A stretch of DNA of 64,000 bases from SAR86 cluster bacterium SAR86E (lineage in GTDB: Bacteria; Pseudomonadota; Gammaproteobacteria; Magnimaribacterales; D2472). Location of the stretch: NCBI GenBank assembly GCA_000307935.1, contig AMWX01000012.1, positions 248,001 through 312,000 on the forward strand, in the 5' to 3' direction. The notes below the pieces were generated by a model that had not been told where the DNA came from, did not search any database, and saw nothing but the letters and a program-made list of their open reading frames with translations. A program made the position numbers and the translations under genes. This document shows positions 4,288 to 10,073 of this stretch, in pieces. How positions within the stretch are numbered: the first letter of the stretch is position 1; every line of letters starts with the position of its first letter.

Positions 4288-5487
4288 ATGAAAATACTTG
4301 CTATTGGCGGTTGCGGAAGCATGGGTCGCTATGCCATGAGAGCAGCACAAAACCTCAGCTCTATTGATAAGATCGTTATCGCTGACATTGACAAAGAAAG
4401 TGCCGAGTCTTTTGCTGCAACTTTAAATCAAAAAGTTTCTGCTATGCAACTTGATGTCAATGATGGTAATGCGCTGAAAAAAGCCATGAAAGACATCAAC
4501 ATTGTTGTTAATACCTGTGGCCCTTATTTTAAATTTGCAGCTCCCATTCTTAAAGCTGCTATATCTTCAGGCTGCAACTACATTGATATTTGTGATGATT
4601 GGGAACCCACGATTGATATGATGCAGCTTGATGCTGAAGCTAAATCAGCTGGAATATCTGCCACTATAGGTCTGGGTGCGAGTCCTGGGCTCACAAATTT
4701 GATGGCACTCCTTGCTATTCGAGAGTTAGATGAAGTAACTACGGTCTATACCGGTTGGGACATTGATGGAATATCGCTAGATGAAAATGCAATGCAGCAA
4801 TCTGAAAATGCAGCTATGATGCATGGCGTTGAACAGATGACGGGGCAGGTAAAAATATTCAAAGATGGTATCTTTAAAATGGTCAAACCGCTTCAGAAAG
4901 TCATAGTCGACTACCCAGGTTTGGCTATGTTTAATGGAAATATATTTGGTCACCCTGAGGCAGTCACTTTCCCGTATTATTTTCCCAAACTCAAAAACTC
5001 AATCAATCTTGCTCATGGGAACTATGCTGACTTTATCACGCTTAAAATTATAATGAACTTAGTAAATTTAGGATTGCTCAGCAAGATTAAAGCAGTTAAT
5101 TTATTTACTTTTATAGAAAGCAAGGGATCTGTTCAAACAAAACAAAAAAATATTGATCGCCCGCCTGTTATGTATGGTTTTGCTCATGGACTTAAAAATG
5201 GTATACCTGCAAGTGCAGGAGTTTGCATGACAAGTGAAACAGGTAACTCAGATATTGATGAGCAAATTAAAAACATAGGCATGGGAGAAATTACAGGAAT
5301 TCCCCTAGCATGTGGCATTAAGATGCTTGCGGAGAATTGCATAAATCAAACTGGGGTGCTGGCACCTGAGGCAGGTCACATAGAGCCTTATAAATTTATA
5401 ATTGATGTATTTGAAGAAATATCGAAAGTATTGGGACTACCGAATGATAGTCTGAATGACTCTATCCAAATTACTCGTTCTTGGTAA
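4288..5487 (+). CDS. Saccharopine dehydrogenase family protein
   Basis: This 399-aa protein opens with a Rossmann motif (AIGGCGSMGRYAMR, residues ~5-18) and an acidic residue after beta-2 (IADIDKES), typical of NAD(P)-dependent saccharopine-dehydrogenase-like reductases. The NTCGPYFKFAAPILKAAI segment is the conserved block after the cofactor domain, and GLGASPGLTNLMA the block before the C-terminal domain. True lysine biosynthesis is unlikely from context. It lies head-to-head with another member and tail-to-tail, with a 17-bp overlap, with an Old Yellow Enzyme. The three reductases may share a pathway, but its substrate cannot be read from the sequence. Confidence 0.8.
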   Translation: MKILAIGGCGSMGRYAMRAAQNLSSIDKIVIADIDKESAESFAATLNQKVSAMQLDVNDGNALKKAMKDINIVVNTCGPYFKFAAPILKAAISSGCNYIDICDDWEPTIDMMQLDAEAKSAGISATIGLGASPGLTNLMALLAIRELDEVTTVYTGWDIDGISLDENAMQQSENAAMMHGVEQMTGQVKIFKDGIFKMVKPLQKVIVDYPGLAMFNGNIFGHPEAVTFPYYFPKLKNSINLAHGNYADFITLKIIMNLVNLGLLSKIKAVNLFTFIESKGSVQTKQKNIDRPPVMYGFAHGLKNGIPASAGVCMTSETGNSDIDEQIKNIGMGEITGIPLACGIKMLAENCINQTGVLAPEAGHIEPYKFIIDVFEEISKVLGLPNDSLNDSIQITRSW

Positions 5488-6805
5488 TTCTTGAACGATG
5501 CTGCTGGTGTTCTAAATAATCTTTTAAAGCGAGCTTGTCTGCCTTGGTATCTTTTCGCAATGCATTAAAAAGTTTCTGGCTGTGATTTGGCATTAAACCA
5601 TCAGCCATTCTTTTGATTTGCTGATAGAACCATGCCATGGCTCCAAAGGCATTGATTACTTGAATCAAAGTAATTGGACTGGAGGGAGAAAAAATCCATG
5701 GACCTAAAGATAAAGTTTTCTCAAAACTAGGGAGGACTTCTAGTTTGCCATCAATCATTTTCTTGATGCAATAGGGATCAGCACAAAATGGACGTCCCAC
5801 CCCAACAATCTGACAAATATTACTTTGCAAAGCAATTTCAATTCCTTCTTTTGATCTAAAGCCTCCTGTAACCATAAGTGGTAAGGATACTGCTTTTCTA
5901 ATATTGCTAGCATATTCAAGAAAATATGCTTCTCTAGCGATAGTGCTCTCTTTTCTAACTTCGCTTCTTTCAGGATTAATGCTTAGATCATCAGCTCCTA
6001 TTTGTTTGGGTTGTTCATATGATCCACCAGAAATTTCTATAATGTCTACGCTTGCACCTTCTAACATCTTAGCAACCTGAATGCTTTCATCAGCCGTAAA
6101 GCCACCTTTTTGGAAGTCTGCAGAATTTAATTTAACTGAAATTGGGAAATCTGTACCAACTTCAGCTCTACACTTTTGAATAATTTCTAAATGAATTCTG
6201 GCTCTATTTTCAATACTGCCACCCCACGCATCATTGCGGGTATTAATATCAGGTGATAAAAATTCGGATAAAAGATAGCCATGAGCTGAATGAAATTGGA
6301 CGCCAGTAAATCCTGTCTCTCTGGCAATTTTTGCTGTGAAAACAAACCTATCTATCACATCCAAGATATCTGCTTCTGTCATAGCTTGGGGAATGCCATA
6401 ATTACGACCAGGGATTTTCAGTCCAACATTGGAGGGCGCCAAAGGAGAAGAATTGATTTCTCCGGGAGTTTGTCTGCCAGCATGAGAAATCTGCATCCAA
6501 AGCTGGGTCTTGTCTTTTGTTCCTGCTGCAGACCAGGCTTTTAAAACATCAAGTTGTTTTTTGTAGTTATATTTATCGATAACAACGTTTGCTGGACCTT
6601 CAAGGTTGCGATGATCAACTTGAACATTTCCAGTTAATAAAATACCGATATTGCCTTCTGCCCATTTTTTATATAAATTTACATGTCCTTGGTGCGCTAG
6701 ATTATCGCCTCGCGCTATACGCTCAGTCATGGCTGCTTTGCATATTCGATTTTTAATTACTTGGCCACAGGGCAAGGTGAGTGATTCATTCATAAAATTA
6801 GACAT
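5471..6805 (-). CDS. NADH:flavin oxidoreductase, Old Yellow Enzyme family
   Basis: This 444-aa protein has an OYE TIM barrel (about residues 5-370). Visible landmarks are the QISHAGRQ block (residues ~105-112), the substrate-binding H172/H175 and Y177 in FHSAHGYLLSEFLSP, the NDAWGGSIENR block after it, and GGFRSKEGIE near the FMN-phosphate site. It lacks the 4Fe-4S/FAD extension of 2,4-dienoyl-CoA reductases and instead has ~75 extra C-terminal residues. It should reduce activated C=C bonds of enones or electrophiles with NAD(P)H. A GGAG sits 9 nt before the ATG. Its promoter has a MerR/SoxR-type layout (separate entry), which fits a redox or electrophile stress role. Its 3' end overlaps the convergent saccharopine-dehydrogenase-like gene. 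Confidence 0.9.
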   Translation of the reverse strand: MSNFMNESLTLPCGQVIKNRICKAAMTERIARGDNLAHQGHVNLYKKWAEGNIGILLTGNVQVDHRNLEGPANVVIDKYNYKKQLDVLKAWSAAGTKDKTQLWMQISHAGRQTPGEINSSPLAPSNVGLKIPGRNYGIPQAMTEADILDVIDRFVFTAKIARETGFTGVQFHSAHGYLLSEFLSPDINTRNDAWGGSIENRARIHLEIIQKCRAEVGTDFPISVKLNSADFQKGGFTADESIQVAKMLEGASVDIIEISGGSYEQPKQIGADDLSINPERSEVRKESTIAREAYFLEYASNIRKAVSLPLMVTGGFRSKEGIEIALQSNICQIVGVGRPFCADPYCIKKMIDGKLEVLPSFEKTLSLGPWIFSPSSPITLIQVINAFGAMAWFYQQIKRMADGLMPNHSQKLFNALRKDTKADKLALKDYLEHQQHRSRITKNE

Positions 6806-6885: not shown

Positions 6886-6932
6886 GGTAGGCCCGGGAGG
6901 ACTCGAACCTCCGACCAATGGATTATGAGTCC
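6886..6932 (-). other. 3' fragment of tRNA-Ile2(CAT), attachment-site-like direct repeat
   Basis: Bases 6890-6932 are identical over 43 bp to 8191-8233 of the intact tRNA and lie in the same orientation. The copy covers the anticodon stem and loop through the T arm and acceptor 3' strand; 6886-6888 continue the match after one mismatch at 6889. The 5' half is absent, so it cannot make a tRNA. A tRNA 3'-half copy downstream of the intact gene is the classic product of site-specific integration by a tyrosine recombinase. Confidence 0.8.
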
Positions 6933-6940
6933 GTTAACAA

Positions 6941-6976
6941 AGGCTAAAAAGCCTATAGATAAAGGCTTAGAAAGCC
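6941..6976. repeat. Two tandem small hairpins next to the tRNA fragment
   Basis: AGGCT-AAAA-AGCCT (6941-6954) and GGCTT-AGA-AAGCC (6964-6976) are two perfect 5-bp stems with short loops, both preceded by AAAGG/TAAAGG. They lie 8 bp inside the tRNA-derived repeat. They could be recombinase or accessory-protein sites, or decay products. Neither has the T-tract of a plus-strand terminator. Confidence 0.5.
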
Positions 6977-6984
6977 CTATTTTA

Positions 6985-7079
6985 TGATAACTTCTTGATA
7001 ACTTTTAATTTTCTTCTAAATTTTGATGATCTTTCTATACAATCCATTTTAGTACTTTGTGATAACCATATGATAACTT
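6985..7079 (+). repeat. Two pairs of TGATAAC direct repeats with 11-bp spacing
   Basis: TGATAAC occurs at 6985, 6996, 7060 and 7071, so each pair is offset by exactly 11 bp, about one helical turn, and the pairs are 64 bp apart. Three of the four continue as TGATAACTT. The last copy ends 6 bp before the ATG of the GST-like gene. Tandem direct repeats beside an attachment core resemble arm-type integrase sites. An operator for the adjacent gene is the alternative. Confidence 0.6.
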
Positions 7080-7085
7080 TTTACT

Positions 7086-8183
7086 ATGTTTAAAGATCCC
7101 ATAACTATCTATGGCTCAAGCATTTCTTATTTTACTGGCAAGATGGAGAGCTACTTTAAAATTAGAGGCATACCCTATAAAAGAATAGTTGCTCCCTATC
7201 CATCTTTTGAAAGAAAAATGAAAAAAAGGGTAGGCATCCATCAAATGCCAGCAGTAGTCTTACCCGATGGTAGATGGATGACCGACACCACTTCAATGAT
7301 TCAATGGTTTGAATCAAATCTTCCCCATTCGTCAATTATTCCTTCTGATCCAAAACAAGCGTTTGCTTGTTATTTAATAGAAGATTGGGCAGATGAATGG
7401 TGGTGGCGACCAGCGATGCATTATCGTTGGCATTACAAAGAAGGAGCAAATTTTGCTTCAAATCATCTAGCAAAAGAGCTATTAGGATCATTTCCAGCCC
7501 CTCATTTTCTTAAGAAAAAATTTCTTACTCGAAGACAAAGAAATGGCTATACAGTTGGTGACGGTGTATCTGCAGACAATATAGTTTCTATTGAGGCAAA
7601 TGTTAAAAACCTATTCCGCAATTTAGAAAAGATTTTTTCTAAAAGAACATTTATATTTGGAGATCATCCATCTCTTGCAGATATTGGTCTATCAGGCCCT
7701 TTCTTAAGACATTTTGCTCTTGATCCAGTTCCCCTCAAAATAATTAAAAATGAAGCTCCTGCAATCCTTAATTGGCTCCAATCTTTATGGAATATAAAAC
7801 TATCAAACCAAGAATTTAGTTACTTAGATAATATACCGAATGATTTGAGTCCACTTCTGAATGAGATAGGAAAAATTTATCTGCCCTATTTATGCGCCAA
7901 TGTAGATGCTGTGAGTAAAAATAAAAGGCGCTTTGAATTTAAATCTGATGAAATGCATTTTGTAGGTGCAAGATACTCTCAATATAGAGTCTGGTGTTTA
8001 AAGCAACTTCAAGAAAAATATCATCAATTACATGAAAACCAAAAAGAAGATATAAAAGCGATGCTTAGTGAACATGGATGCTGGGAACCATTATGGAGGC
8101 ATCAAGATTTACCTATGAAGGGATCACAGGAAGAAAAACTGCCCTTTTGGGCGTATAGAAAAATGATTGGAATAAATGAATAA
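7086..8183 (+). CDS. Glutathione S-transferase-like protein with long C-terminal extension
   Basis: This 365-aa protein has an N-terminal thioredoxin-like GST domain (residues ~5-85: ITIYGSSISYFTGKMESYF, with a QMPAVVLPDG cis-Pro loop near residue 58) and an all-helical C-terminal GST domain to about residue 240, in which HPSLADIGLSGPF carries the S-x-x-D capping box. About 120 more residues follow that I do not recognise, making it much longer than ordinary GSTs (~200-230 aa). The substrate is unknown. No clear Shine-Dalgarno precedes the ATG; the upstream bases are the TGATAAC repeats. The stop codon lies 2 bp from the encoded CCA end of the convergent tRNA. The gene is the only cargo between the two tRNA-derived repeats. 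Confidence 0.8.
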   Translation: MFKDPITIYGSSISYFTGKMESYFKIRGIPYKRIVAPYPSFERKMKKRVGIHQMPAVVLPDGRWMTDTTSMIQWFESNLPHSSIIPSDPKQAFACYLIEDWADEWWWRPAMHYRWHYKEGANFASNHLAKELLGSFPAPHFLKKKFLTRRQRNGYTVGDGVSADNIVSIEANVKNLFRNLEKIFSKRTFIFGDHPSLADIGLSGPFLRHFALDPVPLKIIKNEAPAILNWLQSLWNIKLSNQEFSYLDNIPNDLSPLLNEIGKIYLPYLCANVDAVSKNKRRFEFKSDEMHFVGARYSQYRVWCLKQLQEKYHQLHENQKEDIKAMLSEHGCWEPLWRHQDLPMKGSQEEKLPFWAYRKMIGINE

Positions 8184-8185
8184 CA

Positions 8186-8262
8186 TGGTGGGCCCGGGAG
8201 GACTCGAACCTCCGACCAATGGATTATGAGTCCACTGCTCTAACCAACTGAGCTACAGGCCC
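8186..8262 (-). tRNA. tRNA-Ile2 (CAT anticodon, lysidine-type), CCA encoded
   Basis: The minus strand folds as a full 77-nt cloverleaf including encoded CCA: a 7-bp acceptor stem (GGGCCTG with CGGGCCC, one G-U), D arm, anticodon loop CTCATAA, variable loop TGGTC, and T arm GGAGG-TTCGAGT-CCTCC. CAT could mean elongator Met or Ile2. C4-G69 and C5-G68, which TilS uses to distinguish Ile2 from tRNA-Met, are both present, and the G27-T43 pair and TGGTC variable loop match E. coli ileX. It begins only 5 nt after the rpoD stop codon on the same strand, so it is probably cut from the rpoD transcript. Confidence 0.9.
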
Positions 8263-8267
8263 GAAAA

Positions 8268-10073
8268 CTATTCGTCTAAGAAATTTTTCAGGTGACTTGA
8301 TCTTGAAGGATGTCTTAGTTTTCTTAAAGCTTTAGCTTCAATTTGACGAATCCTTTCTCTTGTTACATCAAACTGTTTACCAACCTCTTCCAACGTATGA
8401 TCTGTATTCATACCAATACCAAAGCGCATTCTTAAAACCTTAGCTTCTCTTGCAGTTAAGGACGAAAGAACATCATCAGTTGCAAAGTGAAGACTGCCTT
8501 CAGTAGCGTTTTTTAATGGGGAATGAATCACTGTGTCTTCAATAAAATCGCCTAGATTCGAATCTTCATCATCACCAATAGGTGTCTCCATTGAAATAGG
8601 TTCTTTAGCAATTTTTAGAACCTTTCTAACCTTGTCTTCCGGCATATCAAGCTCTTTACTTAACTCTTCAGGAGTTGGCTCTCTTCCCATATCCTGCATC
8701 ATTTGACGAGATACTCTGTTTAATTTATTGATAGTTTCAATCATATGAACAGGTATTCTTATGGTTCTAGCTTGGTCAGCGATTGATCTGGTAATTGCTT
8801 GCCTAATCCACCATGTTGCATAGGTTGAGAATTTATAACCTCTTCTGTACTCAAACTTATCAACTGCTTTCATAAGGCCAATGTTGCCTTCTTGAATTAG
8901 ATCTAGGAACTGCAAGCCTCTATTCGTATATTTTTTAGCAATAGATATTACAAGTCTGAGGTTAGCTTCAACCATATCCTTTTTCGCTCGCCTCATTTTA
9001 GTCTCGCCCATGGACATAGCTCGATTAATTTCTTTAATATCTTTAATGCTTAAACCCACTCTTTCTTCAACGCCTTTGATTGCTTTCTGCGCTATTACCA
9101 CATCAGGCTTAATGTGTTCTAGAGATTTTTTGGAGTATTTTTTATTAGTCATCAAAGAATCAACCCATTTCACCTTAGTAATATTGTCTTTGTACATAGC
9201 AATGAAATCTTTACGAGGAATTCTTGCAGATTTAACAAATAAGAACTGGATTCTTTTCTCATGTAAGCGTATTTCCGCTAAGTCACTACGAGCAAAGAAA
9301 GCTAGGTCTTCAAACATCTTTGGTGAAAATTTTAGAAACTGAAAAATTAATCCTAGTTTTGCGAACTCAGCTTTAGCTTCTTTAGAGTGCCTGCCTTTTG
9401 ATTCAACTACCTTATGTGTTTTATTGAATTGACGCTTTAGATTGGTCATGCGTCTTTGAACTTCAGCTAAGTCAGGACCATTATCAACCTCTTCATCACT
9501 CTCTTCTAATTGCTTAGCTTTCTCACTTCCTGGGCCAGCAGAGGGCACTTCTTCCATTTCTTCCAAAAAACCAGTCAGTAGCTCGCTTAGCTTTTTATCT
9601 TCGCTTTTGACTTGCTCATAAAAATCAATAATGTGCTCAACAATGCCAGGATAATGAACGCTTGCATCAAGCAAGTCACGCATGCCCTCCTCGATACGTT
9701 TAGCAATTTCAATCTCACCTTCACGTGTAAGCAGGTCCACTGTACCCATTTCACGCATGTACATTCTGACTGGATCAGTGGTACGTCCAGTTTCATTCTC
9801 AACAGCAGCCAAAGCTTCAGCTGCCTGCTCAAGGGCAATATCATCTTGATCATCGGATGACTCAGAAAGCATTAATGTATCTGCATCAGGAGCAGTCTCA
9901 TGAACTTGAAGACCTAAATCATTGATCATGCCAATGATTTCATCAACCTGATCAGGATCAGAAATATCTTCCGGAAGATGATCGTTTACATCCGCATAAG
10001 TTAAATAGCCCTGCTCGCGACCTTTTTCAATTAACTCTGCAATTCTTGAACCTTGTTTTTTTAGCTTATCCAC
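8268..10073 (-). CDS. rpoD: RNA polymerase primary sigma factor (sigma-70)
   Basis: This 601-aa protein is close to E. coli RpoD (613 aa). An acidic region 1.1 comes first, then region 1.2 ([12 protein letters not shown], ~95-108), a non-conserved acidic insert, region 2 with the core- and -10-binding helices ([28 protein letters not shown]), region 3, and the region 4 helix-turn-helix ([20 protein letters not shown]). The start is GTG at 10073 after a GAGG. A possible promoter lies just upstream, with a perfect TTGACA (10112-10107), a 17-bp spacer and TAAATA (10089-10084), which would leave almost no leader. It follows dnaG as in the usual macromolecular-synthesis operon, but rpsU is not upstream. 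Confidence 0.98.

Follow-up and report, generated by a model that had tools for sequence, protein, structure and literature searches.

The window analysed here is a stretch of 64,000 nucleotides from the SAR86 cluster bacterium SAR86E (contig AMWX01000012.1, positions 248,001 to 312,000, forward strand). A 1.3-kb segment of it lies between an intact tRNA(CAU) gene and a displaced copy of the 3' part of the same gene, and this segment is very probably the integrated form of a small mobile cassette, inserted at the tRNA by a tyrosine recombinase. SAR86 bacteria are abundant in the ocean and largely uncultured; the source genome (1.4 Mb, 13 contigs, 87.8% complete) carries the locus on a 347-kb contig. 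The features of the segment are as follows.

8186..8262, minus strand: intact tRNA(CAU), the target gene (Rfam, ARAGORN; 77/77 bases identical in most family genomes)
8224..8230, minus strand: anticodon loop CTCATAA of the intact tRNA, the probable crossover region (from remnant breakpoints)
8191..8233, minus strand: 43-bp copy within the intact tRNA (exact repeat)
7086..8183, plus strand: cargo gene, encoding a 365-aa glutathione-S-transferase-like (GST-like) protein with a C-terminal extension (GST_N_3 and GST_C_2 over cut-off)
7060..7079, minus strand: repeat pair 1, putative integrase arm sites (homologous module in genomes G021, G048, G007 (contig C15) and G019)
6985..7004, minus strand: repeat pair 2, putative arm sites (same layout in G021)
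6933..6984, minus strand: spacer from pair 2 to the adjoining remnant, with short inverted repeats AAAGGCT/AGCCTTT (by eye)
6923..6929, minus strand: anticodon loop CTCATAA in the remnant (sequence)
6886..6932, minus strand: displaced tRNA 3' part (nucleotides t30-76, 46/47), a remnant resembling a right attachment site, attR (repeat comparison)

The first-pass annotation had reported an exact direct repeat and, between its copies, a single long GST-like gene ending next to the tRNA with no integrase, and both descriptions hold. Positions 6890-6932 and 8191-8233 are identical in the same orientation (43/43 bases); if one mismatch is allowed, the repeat grows to 47 bases (46/47 alike; tRNA nucleotides 30-76, window 6886-6932). 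The copy lies 1301 bp from the tRNA 3' part, and the two are separated by one long open reading frame (ORF), the GST-like gene, and approximately 150 bp of AT-rich DNA, with no integrase. The stop codon of this gene ends at 8183 and the last A of the tRNA is at 8186, leaving a gap of 2 bp. The intact tRNA (anticodon CAT) scores 75.5 bits with Rfam and is labelled Met(CAT) by ARAGORN; from its features we take it to be tRNA-Ile2. The displaced remnant, with two changes among its last 5 bases, scores 25.2 bits, under the cut-off of 29. As none of 20 shuffled tRNAs matched the same locus set, and no tRNA fragments were found on the minus strand of that set, a chance origin of the repeat is excluded. 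In the source genome 32 tRNAs exceeded the cut-off, and among the 30 examined for nearby partial copies only tRNA(CAU) has a partial self-copy within 1.5 kb.

If the segment is an integrated cassette, a circular DNA carrying the tRNA 3' half would have been joined to the chromosomal tRNA at the anticodon loop by a tyrosine recombinase, as the breakpoints described below suggest. The tRNA would have been rebuilt and its old 3' half left 1.25 kb away, in the arrangement that is directly observed, and the GST-like gene would be the cargo. Because one end with putative arm sites is kept and there is no recombinase, the cassette would be non-autonomous; it may have originated as a deletion product of a larger element, or as a cassette moved by the integrase of another element.

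Relatives were compared in a family census of 85 intact-tRNA loci; these come from 84 genomes, as 23 of the 107 had no full-length tRNA match. A 3' tRNA remnant lies 0.7-5.2 kb downstream in nine of the 85 loci (G000, G018, G021, G040, G075, G078, G079, G096, G100), and in G003, G010 and G106 such a remnant is located on a separate contig, outside the census. These remnants form a decay series, with identity falling from 100% to 88% and length down to 22 bp; those below about 20 bp would escape detection. The 3' remnants start at t19-46, seven of the nine at t30-36. In four loci (G043, G087, G088, G092) a 5' remnant ending at t39-40 is found upstream of the intact tRNA and is followed by a shared end sequence; G006 has the same partial tRNA and end sequence on a contig that stops 0.4 kb later, and the rpoD-side tRNA of G007 is cut at t50 by a contig end. 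Both kinds of remnants have breakpoints that converge on the anticodon loop CTCATAA.

If imported DNA had instead recombined homologously between tRNA 3' ends, no integrase would be needed. Most family genomes have this tRNA with 77/77 identical bases, and in G018, where a tandem arrangement is present, the repeat extends 57 bp beyond the CCA; both observations are consistent with this possibility. However, the meeting of the two kinds of breakpoints at a 7-nt loop and the paired arm-like repeats at the ends argue against it, and the long G018 repeat resembles a shared element end (the G078 and G106 ends match each other, and the likeness of G018 to both is by eye). We consider homologous recombination improbable.

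The tRNA(CAU) gene beside rpoD is an insertion hotspot in the SAR86 family. Its flanks in the window are:

8268..10073, minus strand: presumably rpoD, the conserved neighbour on the tRNA 5' side (ORF)
5471..6805, minus strand: presumably an old-yellow-enzyme-like (OYE) oxidoreductase, the flank directly after the tRNA in some relatives from other genera

The first gene after the tRNA belongs to 39 families across the 82 loci where it could be named, and on the other side of rpoD a single neighbour family, which from the window ORF we take to be dnaG, is found in 45/45 readable loci. Within the genus, RpoD was matched in 26/26 genomes (22 matches to RpoD itself, four only to a distant sigma factor), and for 21 of them the reading covered the tRNA side of rpoD. 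Before the next shared genes, the cargo after the tRNA comprises, among others, CobW-like GTPases, a 330-aa protein, a metal-dependent repressor, a zinc ABC transporter and proteins of the WD40 and FG-GAP types; in G001 the shared genes resume 78 bp past the tRNA. Cargo other than that of the window also lies between the tRNA and a remnant in eight further loci.

Site-specific integration into the tRNA, proposed in the first-pass annotation, is supported by this other cargo, by empty alleles of a sister element, by the anticodon-loop breakpoints and by recurring arm-type pairs. The sequence past the G003 remnant agrees with the sequence past the intact tRNA in G009 (118/120 bases) and in G008 (112/120 bases), so that one site is seen in both the empty and the filled state. 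Of the two kinds of alleles that the annotation had suggested seeking in relatives, other cargo is present, and empty sites are near-exact for the sister element, whereas for the window element the order tRNA-then-OYE occurs only in other genera: OYE begins 43-48 bp after the intact tRNA in six loci and 77 bp after it in two, compared with 80 bp after the remnant in the window. Nor do all relatives share one gene here, as the GST gene is present in two of the 26 genus genomes; a third has a 23-aa piece, and the other 24 comprise 16 with weaker matches only (near 30% identity or short pieces) and eight with none.

A local tandem duplication of the tRNA 3' part with a later unrelated gene gain, or an assembly join, would also produce a nearby copy, and among the loci read the right junction is seen in G000 only. 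The nine loci with 3' remnants, the empty alleles, the arm modules, the 347-kb length of the contig and the recurrence of the GST/tRNA junction in other genera all speak against such an origin, which is very improbable.

Paired repeats are the usual arm sites of tyrosine integrases. The right end of the window element contains 9-bp direct repeats arranged in two pairs (11 bp apart within each pair), which we regard as putative arm sites. Pair 1 (AAGTTATCA / TGGTTATCA, 7/9 alike) ends 6 bp before the GST start codon, and pair 2 (AAGTTATCA twice, exact) begins 75 bp from the core in the loop. The same two-pair layout is found in G021, with pair 2 at 76 bp and the repeat TGGTAACCA. A module of 44 columns that includes pair 1 can be aligned between the window, G021, G048, G007:C15 and G019, so that it is present at four other tRNA-Ile2 loci with different neighbours, and over 53 columns it is nearly unchanged between G021 and G048, which belong to different genera. 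The alignment score of the window against G007:C15 is 50, the best of 2000 shuffles being 41. A pair pattern built from the window-type ends is seen three times in the 1.05 Mb of the loci, each time at those ends. Repeat pairs 10-12 bp apart number seven in 20.6 kb of element ends (0.62 expected) vs 31 in the other 1.03 Mb, an enrichment whose P value is only indicative, as windows and settings were picked after the repeats had been seen, two of the seven belong to the same G018 end, and the one in G026 is AT-rich. The pairs differ in sequence between elements: in G018, TGTGAACAC is repeated after the CCA, and G106 has two copies of GTGAGAACA. At E 0.01, the right end of the window element, used as a query, found matches in 81 of 203 genomes, most of them short AT-rich stretches; among nine other matches fetched and checked for tRNAs, only G007:C15 adjoins a tRNA-Ile2 copy. 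The latter is a second tRNA(CAU) gene, 96% identical; its contig (L161, 6.5 kb) has no rpoD and may belong to another SAR86 genome.

The cargo gene is open and full length, and its product has GST_N/GST_C domains, with weak best matches in NCBIfam and PDB. At tRNA(CAU) it occurs in five of the 85 loci, in three genera, the orthologues being those of G018 (behind a remnant), G045, G046 and G097; its stop codon is 2-3 bp from the CCA in three genera. The gene stands at this place in the named records AG-447-B02, AG-447-M16 and MED-G82 (SAR86) and TMED104 ('Gammaproteobacteria'), and other named records with the gene are from SAR86, SAR11, Halieaceae and a few others. Among 51 GST loci, four have a tRNA in the fetched stretch, all four at tRNA-Ile2. 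In a tree of the window gene and 26 of these 51 loci, the genes at the tRNA form one clade (100/100), in which the window gene groups with that of G097 from another genus (94/90) and the gene of G018, from the same genus, with those of G045 and G046 (99/95). Compared with the window, G097 has 76.7% identity in the GST and 84.0% in RpoD, and G018 has 74.5% and 98.5%, respectively. We infer from the tree that the GST gene has been transferred between genera. A role of the cargo in defence was considered and rejected: PADLOC, run with four proteins, gave just one weak match, to the CobW-like protein of G021 (E 0.0024), and none for the window GST, the 330-aa protein of G018 and the recombinase of G087.

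There are two possible variants of the cassette's history. In the first one, an integrase-bearing element inserted and was then reduced to the GST gene, one arm region and the remnant, being now immobile. The locus has no integrase, no arm site is seen on the tRNA side, the remnant has two changes in its last 5 bases, remnants in the family decay from 100% to 88% and down to 22 bp, and G019 retains an arm module without cargo between the tRNA and DUF411, all as would be expected of such a relic. On the other hand, the GST gene is open and full length, and its stop codon 2-3 bp from the CCA in three genera suggests an inherited cassette structure rather than separate deletions. We give this variant slightly less than an even chance.

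In the second variant, the recombinase of another element or a phage would recognise the arms of the cassette, excise it and integrate it. The relevant observations come mostly from the insertions with 5' remnants (type 2). In G087 (L150:3539-10905) a 7.3-kb insertion with two tyrosine recombinases lies between the 5' remnant and the intact tRNA; it also has a 160-aa ORF with an HAH motif that resembles the one of HUH replication proteins. When all ORFs of at least 70 aa in 87 loci (938 ORFs) were rechecked with a model made from 31 recombinases, recombinases were found in G087 only (470 and 191 aa). G088, G092 and G043 share with G087 the left end of its insertion (approximately 85 bp) and, on the upstream side of the intact tRNA, a stretch of 94-144 bp; in their insertions of 0.7-1.1 kb no recombinase was found. 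The right-end sequence is also present upstream of the remnant in G088, and hence this likeness may be part of the chromosome; cleaner evidence comes from the left end. Sharing of ends with G087 suggests that short integrase-less forms arise at tRNA(CAU). Furthermore, G006 and G088, from different genera, have 447 bp in common at 96.6% within the type-2 insertion, which points to transfer between genera, provided that the G006 contig is not chimeric at the tRNA. These shared ends and the 447-bp stretch, as well as the window module common to four loci, favour mobilisation in trans. However, type 2 is another kind of element with a mirror-image layout, and G087 is a candidate parent for type 2 only, no parent element having been found for the window type. 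No integrase matching the window arms was found, and the 470-aa recombinase of G087 has no relative in the viral contigs, where the type-2 end pattern was not found either. Because the right-end likeness may be chromosomal and the join in G006, 0.4 kb before the contig end, may be chimeric, we hold mobilisation in trans to be plausible but on balance doubtful. The present data do not separate it from the relic variant.

Several observations weigh against an integrated mobile cassette. The source genome, at 87.8% completeness, has only two PF00589 matches, of XerC/XerD size; across the family PF00589 is matched in 103/107 genomes, mostly twice, with a third match in eleven, and these counts are lower bounds, as PF00589 misses the 470-aa recombinase of G087. 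OYE follows the intact tRNA directly in no genus genome read, and the arrangement of GST, arms and remnant is found in 0/84 other loci. The support for grouping the window with G097 falls under the starred level of the tree. In 203 genomes the module model (R1) gave no strong match beyond its five training sites, which match by construction, the next best having E 0.002. No excised circle or attP form was seen in the viral contigs, where the tRNA patterns match only whole tRNA genes (five contigs). At the junction of GST gene and tRNA, where the gene directly adjoins the CCA, arm repeats were not seen; hence one attachment (att) arm may be lost, and the present copy may be unable to excise.

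The integrated cassette belongs to a kind already known from cis-mobilizable elements (CIMEs) and additive flexible genomic islands; new is a very small member with unusually clear att anatomy for an uncultured lineage. It has att-like sites of one target gene, of putative function, and no recombination, conjugation or mobilization genes. In the available text of PMC7563491, CIMEs of Streptococcus are att-flanked and integrase-less, with classical forms of 1.2-13 kb and microCIMEs without genes, and that of PMC3146451 describes ssrA islands of Dehalococcoides without an integration module. Both resemble the SAR86 insertions, as far as these excerpts go, in being att-flanked at one target gene, in carrying cargo but no recombination genes, and in tandem arrangements. 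For the window element, descent from integrative conjugative or mobilizable elements and accretion-mobilization would be hypothetical, and its host is of an uncultured marine lineage. Additive cassettes at tRNAs with tRNA-fragment repeats, exchanged between genera, are described in the flexible islands of Actinomarinales (PMC7771536, in part), and tRNA cassettes with such repeats in the flexible island fGI-2 of Methylophilaceae (PMC10872708, in part). The SAR86 site is similar in that relatives have differing gene content at the same tRNA (39 first-gene families in 82 loci). Arm-type pairs, 5'-remnant insertions and one integrase-bearing relative are described here, while the available parts of those two papers contain no such end analysis. 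Further context is given in PMC11389934 and PMC12416821 (excerpts). The window element also differs from phage satellites, having no phage-related genes, one long ORF (GST) and no relative in viral contigs.

The first-pass annotation had likened the segment to the tycheposons of Prochlorococcus, which are reportedly tRNA-borne and encode a tyrosine recombinase. The comparison holds in idea, since both integrate at tRNAs and bring cargo into streamlined marine bacteria, but the window element, with 1.3 kb, one GST gene and no recombinase, is too small and lacks the integrase; tycheposons span 4-200 kb as quoted in the available part of PMC10872708. No publication describing the SAR86 tRNA locus was found by title or opening abstract, in a search that left most subscription journals outside.

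A tentative possibility is that SAR86 has a family-wide cassette system with one tRNA docking site, where insertions mostly of one gene to a few genes, part of them with conserved att arms, would pass between genera, and recombinases kept by very few cells, elements or phages would act in trans. There would then be two mirror-image classes using the same anticodon loop and carrying either the tRNA 3' half or its 5' half, the latter together with a region upstream that looks promoter-like by eye. The locus bears on how streamlined ocean cells gain genes one by one, and it connects the tRNA-repeat cassettes of other streamlined marine bacteria with integrase-type attachment sites. With its defined target, its end sequences and a candidate pair of recombinases, it makes mobilisation in trans testable.

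Carriage of the cassette by phages was considered and rejected, as the viral contigs contain no relative of the GST and their tRNA matches are whole genes rather than attP. Two phage contigs, which by the look of their proteins we take to be T4-like (L111:1786-1950, L112:7463-7627), have a tRNA-Arg and a tRNA(CAU) 77/77 identical to the host tRNA, followed by a gene for a secreted-looking 214-aa protein without a Pfam match; this tRNA is a possible host link and landing site. A 7.9-kb contig of G018 (C7, L159) encodes a 529-aa integrase with Arm-DNA-bind_3 and may be part of a provirus; one contig end is presumably DNA-polymerase-like. In G079 (L198) a 520-aa ORF approximately 10 kb past the tRNA has the look of a serine recombinase. 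In nine of 21 genus loci (e.g. L074:17533-18189) rpoD and the tRNA are separated by a YrbL-like gene, which is absent from the rest, including the window. Finally, G053 (L143) contains three complete identical tRNA(CAU) genes in tandem at 5132, 6828 and 9414, that is, 1.7 and 2.6 kb apart.
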